This document shows, one piece after another, positions 3,423 through 62,600 of a stretch of 64,000 nucleotides of DNA. Under the pieces are notes generated by a model. The model was given only the letters and a program-made list of their open reading frames with translations, searched no databases and was not told the origin of the DNA. This DNA comes from Hexactinellida sp. DTS-2022 (lineage: Eukaryota; Porifera; Hexactinellida). The stretch lies in assembly GCA_028753945.1 (NCBI GenBank), contig JAPNXP010000005.1, forward strand, positions 4,216,001 to 4,280,000. Reading direction: 5' to 3'. Positions within the stretch are counted from its first letter, which is position 1. Each line of letters opens with the position of its first letter. The translations under genes and the position numbers were made by a program.

Positions 3423-3557
3423 AACTAGCCCACTTCAATACGTATGTCATGATGGCCGACAGGAGTGCGCTAGAGGGATCCTAGCGTAGGTGAGTCGTAC
3501 GGCCTGAGAAGGCATACGGTATGGCTCACTGGTAACTAGAACTGGAGTAGACCAGTT

Positions 3558-3615
3558 GTAGTGTGGTCGAGGGTTACCCTCCTGATGAGTCCTTGAGATA
3601 GGACGAAACCACTAC
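3558..3615 (+). ncRNA. hammerhead self-cleaving ribozyme, arm 1
   Basis: The conserved core is complete: CTGATGA at 3582-3588, stem II GTCC/GGAC (3589-3592, 3601-3604) with the 8-nt loop TTGAGATA, and GAAA at 3605-3608. Stem I is GAGGG/CCCTC (3569-3573, 3577-3581) closed by TTA. Upstream GTAGTGTGGTC supplies the U-H cleavage site (after C3568) and one strand of stem III. CCACTAC after GAAA is the other strand, giving 4 continuous pairs or 7 with a 2-nt bulge. Stems I and II are closed, so stem III is the open one (type III, as in viroid-like and plant forms). In a full palindromic transcript this fold competes with the long hairpin. Confidence 0.88.
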
Positions 3616-3767
3616 CCATCACAAGTTGATCTTGGTGAGTGTGAGATATATTTACGGTGTCTCATGCTCATCACATTATAACCCTGCCGTATACGGACGG
3701 GTTATAATGTGATGAGCATGAGACACCGTAAATATATCTCACACTCACCAAGATCAACTTGTGATGG

Positions 3768-3825
3768 GTAGTGGTTTCGTCCTATCTCAAGGACTCATCA
3801 GGAGGGTAACCCTCGACCACACTAC
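3768..3825 (-). ncRNA. hammerhead self-cleaving ribozyme, arm 2
   Basis: The exact mirror copy of the arm 1 ribozyme, read on the minus strand; CTGATGA lies at 3795-3801. Because of the palindrome, RNA from either strand contains one sense ribozyme followed by its complement. Confidence 0.87.
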
Positions 3826-3942
3826 AACTGGTCTACTCCAGTTCTAGTTACCAGTGAGCCATACCGTATGCCTTCTCAGGCCGTACGACTCACCTACGCT
3901 AGGATCCCTCTAGCGCACTCCTGTCGGCCATCATGACACGTA

Positions 3943-10685: not shown

Positions 10686-11043
10686 CGGCGGATTCGCAGA
10701 CCTCACGTTTATGCTAATAACGCCAAAAGTTTACGCTGTAAGTGAAAAAATTTCACATCAGCGGAAAGATGAAAGTTGTGACAACCCATATATCATCCCA
10801 AAATGCCAAAATGCCAAAATTCCTTAAGATGACTTAGCAATTTAGTTCAAATTTAGACCTCGGTTTTTCCATAATAACTCAAAAATTATTCATTTATATA
10901 TCAAATTTTCCTTTTAATCACTTTTATCACATATATATCTTACCTATGACAACCTGTCATAGGTAATTTCAAAACAAAATATTCATTTTTGAAAAAATAT
11001 TATTAACATAAATTTCACCAAAATCGGCTTACAATTATGATTT

Positions 11044-13452
11044 TGATCTAATCTTTACTAGGACAGATGAAGACTTAATTTCAAATATTTTTGTTGACAC
11101 TTTTGATCTGTTATCTGATCACTCCCCCATAATCTTTCAAGTCAATATTGGTTGTCCTAACAACCGCGAAAAACTCACCATTGAATATAGGAATTTTTCG
11201 TCGCTCAATCTTGAAACTTTCAAACATGATATCTCCTCATCCTCTTTAGTCACAAAACCTTGTAGTACTTTGGAAGACTGCCTAATGCAATATATGCAGG
11301 ATATTGGTCAGCTTCTTGATCGGCATGTACCTCTGAGACGTAAGGAACACTGCATCTCACGAGGTAATAATGAGTGGTTTAAATCTAACTATATAATGTT
11401 AACTACAGAGAAACGACTCAAGCGTAAGTTAGCTAGGAAATGGTTAATCTCGAAAAGTTTTGACAGGGAAACATATCTCAAACAGCACAGAAAATATAAT
11501 ACACTTCTGAAAACCTCAAAGAGGGACTTCTATCGGAACAAAATCTCTGAGAATATTGGTAACCAGAAAGAGCTCTATGTGATAATTAAAAAACTAGTAC
11601 CTAGTAAGGTTGTTAATAAACTCCCCCACACAACAGTCTCCATGAACTCGCCTCGAAATTATGCTCTCATTATTGTGATAAGATCCAGAAGATACGCGAA
11701 GTATTATATAACAGTAGTAATGTTCACATTGAAAATCCTTCTCTTACAATTCACTCCAAAAATGCCTGTTCTTTCATTTTGTCCTCCTTTCCCGCCACAA
11801 ATGACACTGAAATACAAAAACTTATTTCATCAGCTCCCAATAAATCCTGCAAGAATGACTTACTACCCACATGGCTTTTTAAGGAATGTTTAGAACTGTT
11901 GTTACCTACCATTGTAAAATTGTCAACCTCTCTCTACAATCTGGTACAATGCCTAACTTGCTTAAGAAAGCAATAGTAACTCCTGTTCTTAAGAATAGTA
12001 ACTTAGATCATGAAGTGCTTGGAAATTACAGACCTATATCTAACATTACCTTCTTATCCAAACTTATTGAGAAAGTTGTTGTTTTTCGCTTAAATACTTA
12101 CATTAATCAACATGGCTTGCTTGAGAAAATGCAATCCGCATACAGAACTCTCCATAGCACAGAAAAAATGTTGGACATTCCATCAGCTTTTGATACCATT
12201 GATCATGATGTTTTACTCAACAGAATGGAATCCACTTGTGGGATAACTGGTAATGCGCTCTCATTTTTCAGATCTTATCTCTGCCATCGAAAAATGACGG
12301 TAGACATCAGAGGTGTTCAGTCCAATGAGGTGGATCTTAGTTCTGGAGTACCACAGGGCTCAGTTCTGGGCCCTCTTCTTTTCAATATATATATGATTCC
12401 ACTTGGTGATATCATCAGGCATTATGGTCTACGATTTCATATGTATGCCGATGACACTCAAATATACTACTGTTTTAAACCGTCTAATGAGAATTATTCA
12501 AATGGTGGTACAATTTTATCTGATTGCATATGTGATATACGAAGATGGATGCGCAGTAATTTTTTGAAACTTAATGATGACAAAACTGAAATTCTTGTAA
12601 TTGTTCAACTAACTGTTGGTCTACATCCGAAGTGTCCTGTTGAATATGTCCGTAATCTAGGGGTGATTTTTGACAAAAGATTTGATTTCTGTAGGCATGT
12701 GAACAACCTGGTTAAGTGTTCTTTCTATCACATCCGAAATATTGCAAAGATTCGTGGATACTTGACTAAATCTCTTGCAGAAACCTTAGTTCATGCTTTT
12801 GTTTCATCACGGCTTGACTATTGTAATTCATTACTTTATGGACTCCCAAATCATTTGTTGAAGAAACTACAACGAGTCTAAAATGCAGCAGCACGAGTCG
12901 TCACTTTGACGGACATTCGTACTAACATCTCCCCTGTCCTCAAATCACTACATTGGCTACCAATAAAGGAGAGAATTATGTTCAAAATCTTACTTATAGC
13001 TTTCAAAGTAATAAATGGTCAATCGCCTAGTTATCTATTAGACATAATTGTTGCCTACTCTCCAAATCGATATTTACGCTCTAGTGATTTACTTCTGGCC
13101 GTTCCAAGGACATATAGTGCATATGGCGACAGTGCTATCTCAAAATCAGCCCCAGTGCTCTGGAATAAACTAACTTCTGAAATTAGATCTTCCTCATCCA
13201 TAGATTCCTTCAAAAACAAACTTAAAACATATCTTTTCAAGCATGCTTACGCCATTACTTGAAAAACCTAATCTGTTTTTTTGTTTTGTTTCTGGTGGTT
13301 TAAATATTATTATTTTTTTAATTTTTTTTTCAAATATTCTATGTTGTACGTATGTATCTATTTCCAATCACACTCTGTTATTTCTGTAATAGGAACTGAG
13401 AACAGTCTTTCTGTACTGAATCTGTATTATTATTATTATTATTTTTTTTTTT
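11044..13452 (+). mobile_element. 5'-truncated CR1/L2-type LINE
   Basis: Translation begins within the C-terminal end of an apurinic-type endonuclease (DLIFTRTDE..LLSDHSPI, from 11045). It continues through a basic linker (11270-11893) into a reverse transcriptase: NYRPISNI, SAFDTIDHDVLL, SSGVPQGSVLGPLLF, and the catalytic MYADDTQIY at about 12440-12463. The C-terminal part is 12906-13262 (LHWLPIKERIMFK). Two frame changes (near 11780-11893 and 11890-11976), a loss between the early fingers and the SAFDTIDH motif, and a TAA at 12879-12881 make it non-functional. It ends in a short (ATT)n and T run. A copy of the preceding 53 bp (10991-11043) follows directly at 13453-13505 as a long target duplication. 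It sits inside the left TIR of the surrounding element. Confidence 0.9.
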
Positions 13453-54854: not shown

Positions 54855-55490
54855 CAGGGGCGGATTAAGGGCCTAGTAGGCCTGGAGCTGAATAATTTTG
54901 ATGGGCCTACCTAATTGACCATCATTCTATACAAACAAATTTTATTTATTCTGTAATTAAAATATTTTTGGTACACTATGAGTCTATGAAGCTACTTTAC
55001 GTGCTTTCTACTTGCGAAATATTTAATCGCAGACTCCACATCAATTTCTTGCAAAGTTAATTTCTATGCACAGTAGAGAAAGTGCACTCAACCGATTCTG
55101 TCCCATAGTTGACCGCAATTCGTTCTTAACCCTTTTCAATGTTGAAAAAGAACGTTACCCACTACAGTTAGTGACCATTTAAAGATAAATATATACTTAG
55201 TGTGATTAACATATTCGGGAACTGACAAAAATTAATCTCACAATGAAAACCTAACTATTGTTTAGTCAAAAATTAATTGGACACGTGTAGAGTTAGGAGT
55301 ACATCCACATAAATTATTTTCCAATAAAATAGTCATCTAACGTGATGAGAATTTGCCATAATTCTACTTGAAGCCTGCATATTGGCTAAGCCTTCGGGGC
55401 TATGGCACAATGTGGTGGGGCCAGGTGGGCCTATTTTGAAGATGGACCTGGGGCTGCAGCCCCATCAGCCCCCGCCTTAATCTGGCCCTG
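54855..55490. mobile_element. 636-bp non-autonomous hAT element
   Basis: Ends CAGGGGCGGATTAAGGGCC / CCGCCTTAATCTGGCCCTG with a perfect 8-bp duplication CACTCAAT (54847-54854, 55491-55498). Inserted in the Gypsy fossil. Confidence 0.95.
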
Positions 55491-56408
55491 CACTCAATCC
55501 TTGGATAATCGAGTGCGATTCCTGGTCAAAGAGTGGAAGTAACTCTATGTGTTTGGAAAACGTATCAATGAGCAGGAGGAAATGCTTATGATTCGTGCTG
55601 GCATACGGCAACATACCTACGTCGTATGCAATCGCATCTCTTGGTCTATTGGCCTGTACTGAGGGAATAAGTTTCTCAGGTGGCGCATTCTTTGGTTTAT
55701 TTCGGGCACAAATGACACATTTCCTACAAAAACTCTCGATGTCGCTGTTCATTTTTCTCCAAAAGAAACTGTTTCGAACGAGTAGCGTCGTTTTATCACT
55801 CCCAAAGTGACCGTCGTTGTGTACTAAGCTCATGATCTTTTCTCTCATAGATTGAAGGACAATTATTTTTCTTCCTCTATAAAGAAGTTCCCCAAATATC
55901 TTCATCCCGATGTGACTTCTGAATGGCCCGTGGTCTATTTTCTGCGTTTTCTCCAGTTGGCTCATGGATGATGCTATCGTTATGTCGCCCCTTTGGGCAT
56001 TTATCAGCTCTTCGTGGAGTGAGTTACTCTCGATGTAGATGTGCCTTTCGAAGCATTGGTCCTCATCGTTAACCCCCGGGGCGATTCCACAACTTTCTCT
56101 GGAAAGATAATCTGCACACACACATTCTCTATTCCTTTGATATACTCTATTGAATAATTGATAGACTCCAGCGTAAGCATCTTCTTCTCGTGTTCCCCAT
56201 TACCATTCCTTACGGTCCCCAGTTAATGCATATAGAGGTTCCGCCACTGTTGCGAACTTGGGTATAAATTCTCTATAGAAGTTGGCCAGTCCCAGGAACC
56301 GCTGAAGTTGCTTCTTACTAGATGGTCTCTGCGCGTTACGAATCTTGTTCAACAGCCGTGGGATTGGACTAGGACCCTTGTGAGACACTATATGTCCAAG
56401 GAATTCCC

Positions 56409-56759
56409 ATACCTGCCAACCTATCTGAGACCAATCCCTGTACGAGGCTCCTATTTCCCCCTATACATTGGCCAAAATTCCTGTACACCCCAAAAATCTT
56501 TCTTGTAAAGGTGAAAACATTAGTTTATATAGACTGTACAGGGAATTCCTATATGCTCGAATAGGAACAGAGTATTTACACAAAACAAAATGCTATATTT
56601 AGTTAATGTAGACCTGTTTAGGTATTTTAATAGACTCACAATCAATAATTTTCCCTAGCTAAAAATCCCTGTACAAATTTGAAAATCCCTGTACGGTCCA
56701 GCCAAAATGGTCAAAATCCCTGTACTGTACAGGGAATCCCTGTACGGTTGGCAGGTAAT
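56409..56759. mobile_element. non-autonomous TIR element, ATACCTGCCAACC family, copy 2
   Basis: Ends ATACCTGCCAACC / GGTTGGCAGGTAAT; 7-bp duplication AATTCCC (56402-56408, 56760-56766). Repeated AATCCCTGTAC inside, as in copy 1 at 3004-3422. Inserted in the Gypsy fossil. Confidence 0.85.
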
Positions 56760-58452
56760 AATTCCCCACATGGATAACCGAATGAGCTTTTGTCCTTTCT
56801 CAGCTGTATGTTCGCTGATTCCAAGGCCTTGAAGGTTTGTTCTAAGTCTGTTAAGTGTTGCTCGAAACTTTCGGAGTGGATGCATGTGTCGTCCACGAAT
56901 GGGTCCGCTCACTTGACATGTTTGAGAGTTTCGTCCATTAGCCTTTGGTAGGATGCCTGGCTGTTTACCAGGCCGAACGGCATCCTGTTCATTTCGTAAA
57001 GCCCTCTCTGAGTCACATAGGCGGTTTTGTACCTGTCTGATTCTTCAACCTCAATAGACCAATAGGCGGATACTCCATCAATGAAGGAGAAGTAACTGTG
57101 GTTAAACATTCGATCCAATATGTCTTTGGCATTAGGCATGGGATCATACATAGGGTCTACTTAATAGTACTTGATTACTGTCTGTTAATTATCAAGTTTA
57201 TTATTCTATAATAAACATTTGTTAATGGGTAGAGATTACTGCAATAGAGTTTCCCGTACCGCAATCGGTCTTTTGTTAAAGTAATTTTTAAAAATCGCTG
57301 GGGGCGATGCCCCCAGACCCCGTTACTGGCTCACTTCACTTGCTCAGAACCCCCCCAATCCAAAACCCTGGCTACGCTCCTGGTTGGGGCCGTTTCGGGT
57401 TTTGGGCAAACACGCACTGGAAGGTTTCGAGTAATCTAGATATGGCAGCCTTTTGATGTGGCATAAGATTGGGATTGACGATGTCTCTGGTAGCGACTCG
57501 AAATTCCTCGATATCCTCCAACACAGCTACGCTTGCTCTCGTAATGGGCTCTTCTCACTCAATAGTGGCATGCGAGTTCTTCCATGCGGTGCCTAGACGG
57601 ACTTGTTGACTCTGCCAATCGAACTCAGTTGAGCCCAATTTTTTTAGCAGGTCTCGTCCAAGAATACATGTACTAGTTCCTGTTATTTTCAAAACTTCAA
57701 ACGTGTGCTCCAGTACTTGTTCGTCGCCTAGATCTACTGACAACTCCAACTCTCCTACTACGTGGACCGGTTCTCGCAAAATACCATAAACTCGACTAAC
57801 TTTACTTTTCATGGACTTTTTCAACCCGAGTTCGTGCACCGTCCCGATATCAATTACTGACGGTCCTGCGCCGCTGTATAGAAAACCATTTGTTCGCTTA
57901 CCGTTGAGCTTTATTTCAATGAGAACTGATAGTTCTGCACCTAGACCCTCTATATCTGCCACTAGCATTGTGTGGTCGTATTTACCCTTTTTGTGTACTA
58001 TGCTACAGTACTTCAGGACGTGGCCTTTCTGTCCACAAGACGGGCAATGTTTCTCTGGACAAAACTTCCAAAAATGCTTCCCGCCACAAATGTAGCAGTT
58101 TCTCCTTTCTTGTTGCTCTGGGCCCCTGTCTGATTCCTCCACACTGGTTTACTTCTGGCAAATGCAATTCTGTTTTCCGTACATTCTGTTTCGGTGTACT
58201 CGGTTAAGTCGGAAGCTTCATTACTAACTCTGATGCTTGCCACTTTGGTGCCGGGGCCCTCACGTTTATTTCCTTGATTGAGAGGAAAACCCTTTTCTGT
58301 AAGCGTTTCTTTGATCTCAGCGATAAGCTTGAACGCGTCCGCGTGCTCTAGGTCATCGCTAATGGCTGTAACTGTACCTTTCATTCGATTCTGCACATCC
58401 TTTGGGAGCTGAGTCGATACCATTGATGCGACGAATTTGAGCGTTGTCCCGG

Positions 58453-58640
58453 TGTAGCAGCCCAGATTAACCCCCCATCAGTATATACCCGGGTATAATC
58501 TGTCCTAGGCCAGAATATACCCGGGAGTATATTCTGTCCTAGGCCAGATTATACCCGGGTATGAAGTGGGCTAGCCCAAAATATACCCCTCTAGCCCAGA
58601 TTATACCCCCTTGGGGGTATAATCTGGGCTAGGACAGAAT
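58453..58640 (+). repeat. Ginger1-type terminal repeat A, left
   Basis: Begins TGTAGCAGCCCAGATTAACC directly after CCGG (58449-58452). It consists of AGCCCAGATTATACCCGGGT/TATTCTGTCCTAG-type units in both orientations. The partner is inverted at 62853-62977. Confidence 0.85.
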
Positions 58641-59639: not shown

Positions 59640-62600
59640 CTAACTTTGAACATTGATTACGACATTGAAATGTTCTGATAAATTTTCAAGGTATAGGGCT
59701 CTCATGGATGTGTTCGTGAGAGTAAATGAGGAAGGAAATGTAAGCCATTGCAAAGAATCTCCACTCTTCGTGTAAACAACGATATCTTGTTCAAGCAAAC
59801 TTGATGTAGCCATTATTTCTGCATCTGTCGCCCAAACTCCATTGCTAGCCATCGAACTTAAGTTTACATAGTTATTGACTGACTGATTGAGATATTTTTG
59901 TAATTTGCCGCTAATAGTACCACACATGTACTGAACCACCCGGTTCCTTATAACAAGGTGATTATCTTCAGATCCTGTTATGATATAACTTATAGCTCGG
60001 AAATAACAATTACCATCACCTCGGGTTATGTATACACGTCCTGGAATGTTTAGATTTCCCTCCTTTCCAAAGTATTGGGTTTTGTGTACAGTTAGATTTA
60101 AGAACCTTGCAATTTTCTTCTTAGCTTCAGGTGATATTGGAGAGAATTCCTGATAGACTTGGGATGTTGAATTTCAATCAAATCTAAATCACATCCGCTT
60201 TCACCTTTTTTACTTTGTAAAGTGTTACATCTCAGGTGAATCGGGTTTTTTATAATCTCGTTCACGACATCAGACTTTGGTGATTTAATATGGGTATAAC
60301 ACTTCAGATTTGCAATATTATACACGTTTTTGAGTTTGTTGCCACTTTTAATATTTTCTAGTCTTACTCGGCCTTTACCCAGCATTTCAGTCACTTTGTA
60401 TGGTCCAACCCAACGTGGTTCCAATTTCGAGCCCATTCGATGGATGCGTATTCTGTTTTTTATGTACACTGTATTACCCAAAGATACCCTCAAATTGTTG
60501 GAATGACGCTTATCATAATTGTGTTTTTGTCGCTTTTGTGCAATTACTATATTATCATTTACTTTGCTGTTTATGTCTTCATGAATATTTTCAAGTGTAT
60601 CTAAAATCTCGGGATTTACATGCTCACCAGATTTCATATAAATGTCACTTTCATAAATATCTATTGGTAGCTTAGCAATACGACCATACATCACTTGGAA
60701 AGGAGTACAGTTAGTTGAAGCATGTTTGCTTGTATGGTAGGAAAAGAGAACTCCTGGGATATGGATAACCCAATCATCGCATTGGTCATTTACTAATTTA
60801 GATAATGCTGATTTCAGTGTTCTATTATCCCTTTCACGCAGACCATTGGTCTGAGGGTGGTACGCTGAAGAAATGCGATGTTCTGTTTGTAGGCTTTCAA
60901 GGAGAAAATCAATGACTTTATTTACAAATTCTCTTCCTTGATCACTGATCAAAGTATCCATACATCCAAGTCTACAAACAACAGAGTAGAGAAAATCAGC
61001 GACACATTTTGCGGTCTTGTTGGGTATGGCTGAAGCTTCTGACCATTTAGAAAAATGATCTGACATTGCGACAATATACTTGTTGCCATGTGCTGATTCC
61101 TGTAATGGTCCAATGATGTCAATTCCAACAAGACTCCACACTTTAGCTGGTACATTAATGGAACAAAGGGGAGAAGATTCGACTTCAAGTTTTGGATTTA
61201 TCACGAAGCATTTTGGACACTCTTTGCAATATGTTGCAATATCATTCTTCATACCTAAATAAAGTTTTTATCAAACGTAATCCTAGTCACAATTTACTAA
61301 TATTTCTCATATTTTATATTACGTATAGTTTATATTTAAGTATGCACTAAGTACGTTTCCAGTAATATCTTGAAGCGTGACCTTCGATATATAAGGCCTG
61401 AGTGCTGGTTTGAACCATGGATTACTTAAAGTGCATTGAAAAATGGAGAATTGTTCTTTATCCCAATAATTAGCAATGATAGAGCTGAAAAGTGTATTAT
61501 AACTATATAGGAATATGGTACCCAGGTATACATAGCACTCTCCAGAATTGTGATATGTCATCATCTGATGACGTAATGGTAATTTTGGTTGCGAATTATC
61601 TTGTCTTTCTAGCATACTTTTAACATAGTTAAACGCGTTATAAATGTTCAAAATTGGAACATGGTTATACCCATAACTAGTTGAAAAAAATATATCGAAA
61701 TTATAAATGGAATGTTGACACATTCCTCGGTTGCCATGGAAATGTATATTTCCTAAATGTGTCATAACTCAAAAACTATGAATGTTATGTAAACTAGGCT
61801 GGTACTGATCTGTCCGGAATAGGTAACTTCCTATTCATTGATAATACATTTTATATGCCTAACTTCAATCATCTTTGAGATAGTGAGTCATTACCTAATA
61901 ATGAATTAAGTGTTAATTATGTCATGATCTCAAAAGTTATTGAAGTTAGGCATATAAAATGTATTATCAATGAATAGGAAGTTACCTATTCCGGACAGAT
62001 CAGTACCAGCCTAGTTTACATAACATTCATAGTTTTTGAGTTATGACACATTTTAGGAAATATACATTTCCATGGCAACCGAGGAATGTGTCAACATTCC
62101 ATTTATAATTTCGATATATTTTTTTCAACTAGTTATGGGTATAACCATGTTCCAATTTTGAACATTTATAACGCGTTTAACTATGTTAAAAGTATGCTAG
62201 AAAAACAAGATAATTCGCAACCAAAATTACCATTACGTCATCAGATGATAACATATCACAATTCTGGAGAGTGCTATGTATACCTGGGTACCATATTCCT
62301 ATATTGTTATAATACACTTTTCAGCTCTATCATTGCTAATTATTGGGATAAAGAACAATTCTCCATTTTTCAATGCACTTTAAGTAATCCATGGTACACA
62401 AATTTTCGCTTAACACTCAGGCCTTATATATCGAAGGTCACGCTTGAAGCTATTTTGTTATAAGTCTTATCTCGTCCAAAATGACCTCCTGAAGATGGAT
62501 TATCGTGACATACTCCGAGTACAGTAGAAAATCTGCTAGCTTGTAATAATTCCTGATCACCATGAATCAATATTCCATTTTTTAATACATAAGGCTTAAC

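Follow-up and report, generated by a model that had tools for sequence, protein, structure and literature searches.

A 494-bp inverted repeat at positions 3445-3938 of the sponge DNA analysed here (the window, 64 kb, G000:C14:4216001-4280000) is probably composed of two LTRs head to head. It would be an inverted two-LTR insertion of a self-primed LTR retrozyme, generated by a strand that snapped back and was copied. The unit that moves appears to be an LTR retrozyme (a non-autonomous LTR element whose LTRs each contain a type III hammerhead ribozyme), as units running from TG to CA carry a hammerhead, are often flanked by target-site duplications (TSDs), and are accompanied by rarer joined copies. 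We lean, if only gently, towards a fuller reading, in which these are animal LTR retrozymes primed by a hairpin instead of a tRNA, with a Gypsy helper that primes itself as well, and with snap-back palindromes that are integrated. Within that reading, primer and template stay joined, so that plus strands would snap back and palindromes with two U3 ends would integrate.

Retrozymes have been described as LTR elements with type III hammerheads in plants and as non-LTR elements with type I hammerheads in animals (PMC7229834, PMC7761336, PMC11722881, PMC9695139). The hammerheads of metazoans are mostly, not exclusively, of type I (PMC7229834), and type III hammerheads have been mentioned for HDV-like circular RNAs of animals and, in part as work in preparation, for elements of bacteria or insects (PMC7761336). 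In the passages of the open-licence PMC literature that bear on the subject, we found no animal LTR retrozyme, no retrozyme with a hairpin for a primer site, and no palindromic retrozyme insertions. Sponge LTR retrozymes would break the division between plant LTR and animal non-LTR elements, and would bring the LTR retrozyme lifestyle to an early-branching animal. They bear on two questions: what primes circular retrozyme RNAs, and whether priming by hairpins came before priming by tRNAs, as has been proposed for LTR elements (PMC3601003). Inverted insertions with exact target duplications would form a sequence record of a folded-back strand, testable from genomes and small-RNA libraries; if the proposal is true, the palindromes are genomic fossils of hairpin-primed reverse transcription.

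The window palindrome and its ribozymes

The two arms of the palindrome, 247 nt each (3445-3691 and 3692-3938), are 99% complementary, and an inverted repeat of this length is not due to chance. An earlier, sequence-only reading of the window had described arms that match exactly except beside the centre and a CGTA duplication on both sides, and we confirmed both: mismatches are confined to positions 3685, 3686, 3697, and 3698, and the outer ends read TGTCATGATG...CATCATGACA. All four non-complementary bases lie in the loop of the central hairpin, which is the pattern expected of an encoded hairpin and an otherwise copied palindrome. The bounds of the LTR-like unit, which belongs to family A1, were taken from single copies such as L033 (TSD ACAT) and L035 (TSD TATA). 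In family B, non-inverted copies have a hairpin directly after the LTR, and the linker at the palindrome centre is its counterpart (Table 1).

Table 1. Parts of the palindrome and its flanks, in window coordinates.
Feature	Position	Strand	Basis
Left target-site duplication, CGTA	3441-3444	.	Sequence
LTR-like unit, family A1, 231 bp, TG...CA	3445-3675	+	Bounds from single copies elsewhere
Type III hammerhead ribozyme, predicted cleavage after 3568	3561-3614	+	RF00008; covariation across 50 genome copies
Hairpin linker, palindrome centre	3676-3707	+	Folding; homologous centres L059, L070; LTR+hairpin copy L043
Second LTR-like unit, inverted	3708-3938	-	Complementarity to first arm
Type III hammerhead of inverted unit	3769-3822	-	RF00008
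Right target-site duplication, CGTA	3939-3942	.	Sequence

The hammerhead of each arm scores 60.2 bits (E 6.5e-11) with RF00008 (Hammerhead_3), above the gathering score of 48.5 bits, and the two are the only Rfam matches above gathering score in the 64-kb window. This is the check with the type III covariance model that the sequence-only reading had proposed, and the cores which that reading placed at 3558-3615 (+) and 3768-3825 (-) agree with the model to within a few bases. Its claim of a ribozyme on both strands holds as well, as this follows from the palindrome. From the known layout of hammerheads, cleavage of the inverted copy is predicted after 3815, read on the minus strand. When positions 3445-3675 were folded alone, all three hammerhead helices formed.

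Across the whole genome (112 Mb, 18 contigs), RF00008 gave at least 68 matches at E <= 0.001, at least 64 of which were over the cut-off. These matches span the type III model over its full length and do not fall under type I. A hammerhead motif search found 91 non-redundant copies, 54 of them distinct. Fifty of these were aligned, while L070, L073, L084, and L088:661-717 were left out for a shifted length or for a broken or rearranged 5' half. In this alignment, 98.4% of the cells are paired, and five of the 15 pairs show two-sided changes (0 of 500 shuffles), which points to selection on the putative ribozyme. A search of viral contigs with the exact hammerhead core pattern gave no matches.

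Single units and direct copies in the genome

Used as a query on the genome, the 247-nt arm returned at least 49 matches. The matches listed comprise 28 distinct loci, of which 21 are single units of about 231-237 bp that start with TGTGATGA or TGTCATGA and end in TCACCACA or TCATCACA; the remainder are the window, L041, L042, L043, L052, L056, and L059. The closest relatives of the palindrome among the matches listed (L033, L034, and L035, 97-100% identical) are all single units. The genome search that the sequence-only reading had suggested thus brought up relatives flanked by TSDs, but the 49 scored arm matches listed did not include a further copy of the window palindrome. Its view of the palindrome as the mobile family is not supported, in view of both this and the predominance of single units.

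The majority of the relatives found consist of one TG...CA unit of 200-325 bp with the hammerhead inside; two-unit copies are rarer. Further families with the same hammerhead have, among the matches listed, units of 203, 272, and 325 bp, which start with TGTGACG or TGTGAGG and end in CATAACA, CATGACA, or CATCACA. The fetched loci yielded 123 non-redundant unit hits (including hits of query E1, whose 3' end was cut early), 55 of which have both ends; one E1 hit, L006, without a TSD, is among the 55. An exact 4-bp duplication lies right at both ends in 24 of these 55 units, three of which (L036, L037, and L039) are one duplicated insertion. By comparison, only about 1% (25 of 2970) of pairings between the left flank of one copy and the right flank of another match by chance. 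No exact TSD directly borders the other 31, some of which sit inside composites, where units were counted among the 55 though unable to score a TSD. Single units with exact TSDs directly at TG and CA indicate insertion as single units. The three copies of the duplicated insertion, a solo LTR at C15:2963814, C14:4210857, and C14:1128225, have identical flanks, indicating a single insertion that was duplicated along with its surroundings.

Direct pairs of LTRs around a short non-coding internal part are rare, and solo LTRs dominate among the copies found. One such pair, with TSD AAAC, is found at a single locus (L083/L052) in the order LTR, internal part, GGAAGGGAACCTGA, and LTR, although its 5' LTR is without its 3' end, which has been replaced. 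The other is found in L061, which contains five 325-bp LTRs in the order + + - - -, with CTAT at both outer ends; its internal parts measure 161 bp in two of three cases, the third being disturbed by a jump. A polypurine tract directly precedes the TG of the 3' LTR, reading AAAGGGAAGGTGA in L061 and GGAAGGGAACCTGA in L083 and L069; in L089, the tract before the start of the second LTR is not clear. In addition, L042 is a tandem LTR-GA-LTR copy with TSD CTCC, and L090 contains an LTR, the hairpin, an internal part, and the beginning of a second LTR. A 4-bp TSD flanks eight of ten composites. In three family A loci (L068, L069, and L083), the end of the 5' LTR is replaced by TAAGTAAGAGATCCCAAACC, followed by the 3' arm of the hairpin only.

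These features parallel those that Cervera et al. 2016 (PMC4918200) described for the LTR retrozymes of plants, which have a type III hammerhead within the LTR, as here, and likewise short inverted termini at their TG...CA ends, a purine tract, an internal part that is short and non-coding, 4-bp TSDs, solo LTRs, and a Gypsy-type helper with common end boxes. The sponge elements differ in their animal host, in having a hairpin where plants have a tRNA-Met primer site, and in their smaller size (LTRs of about 200-325 bp; 325+161 bp for the L061 unit). They also form inverted composites flanked by TSDs, for which we found no mention in the relevant sections on plant retrozymes (PMC4918200). With the non-LTR retrozymes of metazoans (PMC7229834), they have in common that they are small, non-coding, hammerhead-bearing retroelements of animals. 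Those elements, however, are tandem repeats with type I hammerheads and longer TSDs, without LTR, PBS, or PPT, whereas the sponge elements have a type III hammerhead, an LTR, a purine tract, and a 4-bp TSD.

The hairpin at the LTR end and a candidate helper

In non-inverted copies, a hairpin comes after the CA that closes the LTR, and its stem takes in the final bases of the LTR. In L061, CATAACA is directly followed by TAATAACT...AGTTATTATGTTATG, and the same layout is found in L089, L091, L004, and L090. These five related sequences (L084, which has another hairpin length and no preceding LTR, was dropped) share a 15-pair stem, in which 98.6% of the cells are paired and six of the 15 pairs show two-sided changes (0 of 500 shuffles). 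Each hairpin folds with a z of -5.2 to -8.5 relative to its own shuffles. From the covariation it follows that the fold has been maintained, though not why, since a copying process that passes through the fold might by itself preserve the complementarity of the arms. Exact hairpins, palindromes included, occur nine times in family B and twice in family A. Among the fetched loci, no intact non-inverted LTR-hairpin-internal copy of family A was found; L043, an LTR plus hairpin from this family, has no TSD.

The bases directly after the LTR come in six variants, TAATAACT, TAATAACC, TAATATCT, TAAGTACT, TCATAACG, and TTATAACC, and vary across copies while their pairing is kept. None of the six starts with TGG, by which we judged the presence of a canonical primer site at the LTR end; where a tRNA-Met primer binding site would be expected, there is a hairpin instead. 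In fungal GalEa Copia elements, a hairpin directly after the 5' LTR (the Conserved Hairpin Site) has been proposed to stand in place of the tRNA primer site (PMC5445492), a likeness of form only: GalEa elements are autonomous Copia elements with 9-bp arms and no ribozyme, and we found no palindromic insertions mentioned in the pertinent passages of that paper. A lack of a canonical primer site has also been described for bivalve TRIMs (PMC6934838). The Tf1 type of self-priming does not seem to fit the retrozymes, as the longest LTR complement to the 40 post-LTR bases is 6-8 nt in the five copies.

A search for AAAGGGAAGGTGATGTGACG with up to three mismatches found 20 places, and the reversed pattern found five. 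The three places with zero mismatches all lie in L061, and those with one and two mismatches (L094 and L095) mark the 3' end of an LTR element, with a reading frame in L095 that reaches just short of the purine tract. This element is our candidate helper; on C6, it has two 187-bp LTRs (3745101-3745287 and 3749775-3749961) that have one difference between them and ATGT on both outer sides. Its purine tract and LTR start read AAAAGGGAAGGTGA followed directly by TGTGA, and its LTR end is TCATCACA, as in families A1 and D1. Upstream of its 3' end, the piece that was read has coding sequence for two domains separated by a stop, an integrase zinc-binding domain (E 1.7e-19) and a partial rve domain (E 1.9e-5; 25.3 bits, under the curated 32.6). 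These integrase domains and end boxes make this Gypsy-like element a candidate helper; it and the retrozymes have only short boxes in common, and the purine tract of family A, GGAAGGGAACCTGA, diverges more. A second copy, L097, is without the LTR end and primer region. A repeat with a AAAGGTAGGGTGATGTGATG box, which accounts for nine of the 20 places, was rejected as a helper on the one copy fetched (L093), in which the box is spanned by long reading frames on the minus strand in place of an LTR.

Two nucleotides past the 5' LTR of the candidate helper, a 14-nt stretch is exactly complementary to LTR positions 113-126 (0 of 2000 shuffles). The region after the 5' LTR does not fold with unusual stability (z 0.18), and has this self-complementarity instead of a TGG primer site. 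By analogy, the layout is a candidate for self-priming of the Tf1 type, with the LTR stretch as the putative RNA start, as in Tf1/sushi Ty3/gypsy elements, whose RNA primes itself (PMC7175516). The geometry differs from that of the retrozyme hairpin in that the complement lies inside the LTR. Likewise, the Tf1 primer is the 5' end of the RNA (PMC7175516), whereas in the retrozymes a local hairpin would provide the primer with its 3' arm, which remains attached to the template. The helper candidate with its self-complementary primer region strengthens the case that the hairpin is likely the regular primer of reverse transcription.

Alternatively, the hairpin may serve in packaging or dimerisation. 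In its full form, this alternative holds that the retrozymes are primed by a tRNA or tRNA fragment, that the hairpin is kept for packaging, dimerisation, or circle stability, and that the palindromes are occasional products of strong-stop DNA snapping back, for which a hairpin at a DNA 3' end would suffice. There is precedent in the tRNA-Met primer site of plant LTR retrozymes (PMC4918200) and the tRNA-Leu site of a small animal LTR element (PMC4558846). We nonetheless consider tRNA priming unlikely, given that the post-LTR bases of all six variants have no TGG start and change while their pairing is kept, and that the helper candidate is likewise self-complementary and has no TGG site.

Inverted composites and the origin of the palindrome

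Eight inverted composites have both outer ends, and six of these are flanked by an exact TSD: the window palindrome (CGTA), L059 (ATAT), L061 (CTAT), L069 (CTAG), L086 (ATAC), and L089 (ATAC). L041 and L004 have none, the latter joining LTRs of two different families, and L070, L087, and L088 are truncated. A mobile-element origin with a 4-bp duplication, as the sequence-only reading had it, is thus borne out by other inverted copies with TSDs. The inverted composites span 346 to 2184 bp and vary in family and junction, as would be expected of recurrent by-products of one process. Seven loci have a hairpin at the centre (the window, L059, L061, L070, L086, L087, and L088), with nested folds in L059 and L088. 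In L041, L069, L089, and L004, the inversion point is not simply the hairpin, but lies elsewhere or partly at it, and the copy in L070 leaves out a stretch of the LTR past the hairpin, suggesting that other template jumps occur too.

The LTRs of L061 differ solely at position 187, which is an A in the two LTRs flanking the palindrome centre and a G in the other three. A private base common to these two LTRs is most simply explained if one was copied from the other. Elsewhere in this locus (L061:3062-3110), a 41-bp step at which copying restarts at a hairpin arm resembles a template jump.

The unit boundaries, TSDs, hairpin, inverted insertions, and a template/copy pattern at one locus are the observations from which we propose a cycle; cleavage, circles, and self-priming in these elements are what we infer from them. 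A copy with multiple LTRs would be transcribed and cut by its hammerheads into unit RNA, probably circular by analogy with plant retrozymes. Reverse transcription would then be self-primed, without a tRNA, by the hairpin at the LTR end, where a primer binding site is expected, as its position, its covariation, and the absence of a canonical site suggest. The plus strand would begin at TG, from the purine tract before the LTR. The resulting cDNAs would mostly hold a single LTR, some being longer, and an LTR-type integrase would insert them with the 4-bp duplications that are observed; its proposed source is the Gypsy-like helper, on account of the shared purine-tract/LTR-start box and LTR ends. 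Finally, a plus-sense strand ending in the hairpin could fold back on itself and be copied as far as its 5' end, which would yield TG-LTR-hairpin-LTR'-CA. Such a product would have two identical U3 ends, acceptable to the integrase, and the window palindrome would be one of them. As the strand that snaps back, we favour plus-strand strong-stop DNA, starting at TG after the purine tract and ending in the hairpin, as its 5' end would be exactly TG; alternatively, hairpin-primed RNA could be copied all through. Taken as a whole, we regard this cycle as a probable account of the elements.

It seems quite improbable that the palindrome is itself mobile, be it as a foldback or MITE-like element or as a rod-shaped self-cleaving RNA copied to DNA, with the single units as its broken derivatives. 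Inverted copies with TSDs do occur in at least two families, and the hairpin centre recurs, but the single units insert as such, with exact TSDs at TG and CA in 24 of 55. Moreover, the inverted composites differ in length and junction, and the same palindrome at several sites, typical of foldback or MITE-type elements, is not what the 49 scored arm matches listed contain.

Very unlikely, too, is an origin from two separate LTR insertions head to head, or from inverted duplication or ectopic recombination after insertion. Solo LTRs are frequent, and L004, which joins two families without a TSD, might be such a case, but the outer TSDs in six of eight composites, the central hairpin at seven loci, and the base that is private to exactly the two centre-flanking LTRs of L061 all speak against it. 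DIRS-type retroelements have inverted terminal repeats without TSDs, and the TSDs of those six composites set them apart from this type.

The sequence-only reading had also suggested insertion in trans by the integrase of an LTR element or of Ginger, and the typical ends of the elements agree with the former. Transposition as DNA by a Ginger transposase acting in trans is extremely unlikely, even though Ginger1 elements combine a Gypsy-like integrase with TGTNR ends and 4-bp TSDs (PMC2836005), the ends of the ribozyme elements fit TGTNR, and the window contains a Ginger1 DNA transposon that encodes both an integrase and an OTU domain. This Ginger1, on the minus strand, extends from 58779 to about 64076 (right end L092:76) and has TGTAACA...TGTTACA ends with CCGG on both sides; among the named relatives of its protein, the best, at 69% identity, comes from the glass sponge Oopsacas minuta, and another relative is 97% identical. 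Ginger1 duplicates CCGG or CCGT and moves without reverse transcription, and TGTNR ends occur in Gypsy LTRs too (PMC2836005). Neither CCGG nor CCGT is among the TSDs listed for the ribozyme elements, and their purine tract and LTR-internal-LTR order indicate reverse transcription. Palindromes are a known artefact of some libraries, but a missed adapter or amplification palindrome is scarcely credible here, with differing flanks, a TSD on both sides, and similar inverted copies at several loci, of which L086 has arms that are only 87.5% identical.

The Oopsacas minuta match agrees with a sponge, probably a glass sponge, as the host, although a transposon relative could mislead if taken alone. 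In the genome, an Ets domain matched at seven places and chlorophyll a/b binding at none. Wnt (PF00110) had no match either, which by itself shows little, as the controls gave none; glass sponges have been described as lacking Wnt signalling (PMC5684314). The window Ginger1 adjoins Gypsy-like fragments (55477-58477) with protease and integrase zinc-finger domains. At 58449-58459, CCGG is followed by TGTAGCAGCCC, a second start resembling the Ginger1 end, which perhaps belongs to a short non-autonomous Ginger relative. Inside the Ginger1, two 347-nt arms (61411-61757 and 62052-62398) are 99% complementary and lie 294 nt apart, with a second pair nested within. Elsewhere in the window, a 22-bp tandem unit is present in three exact copies (2914-2980), and positions 11012-12881 hold part of a non-LTR element that includes a reverse transcriptase domain (PF00078).
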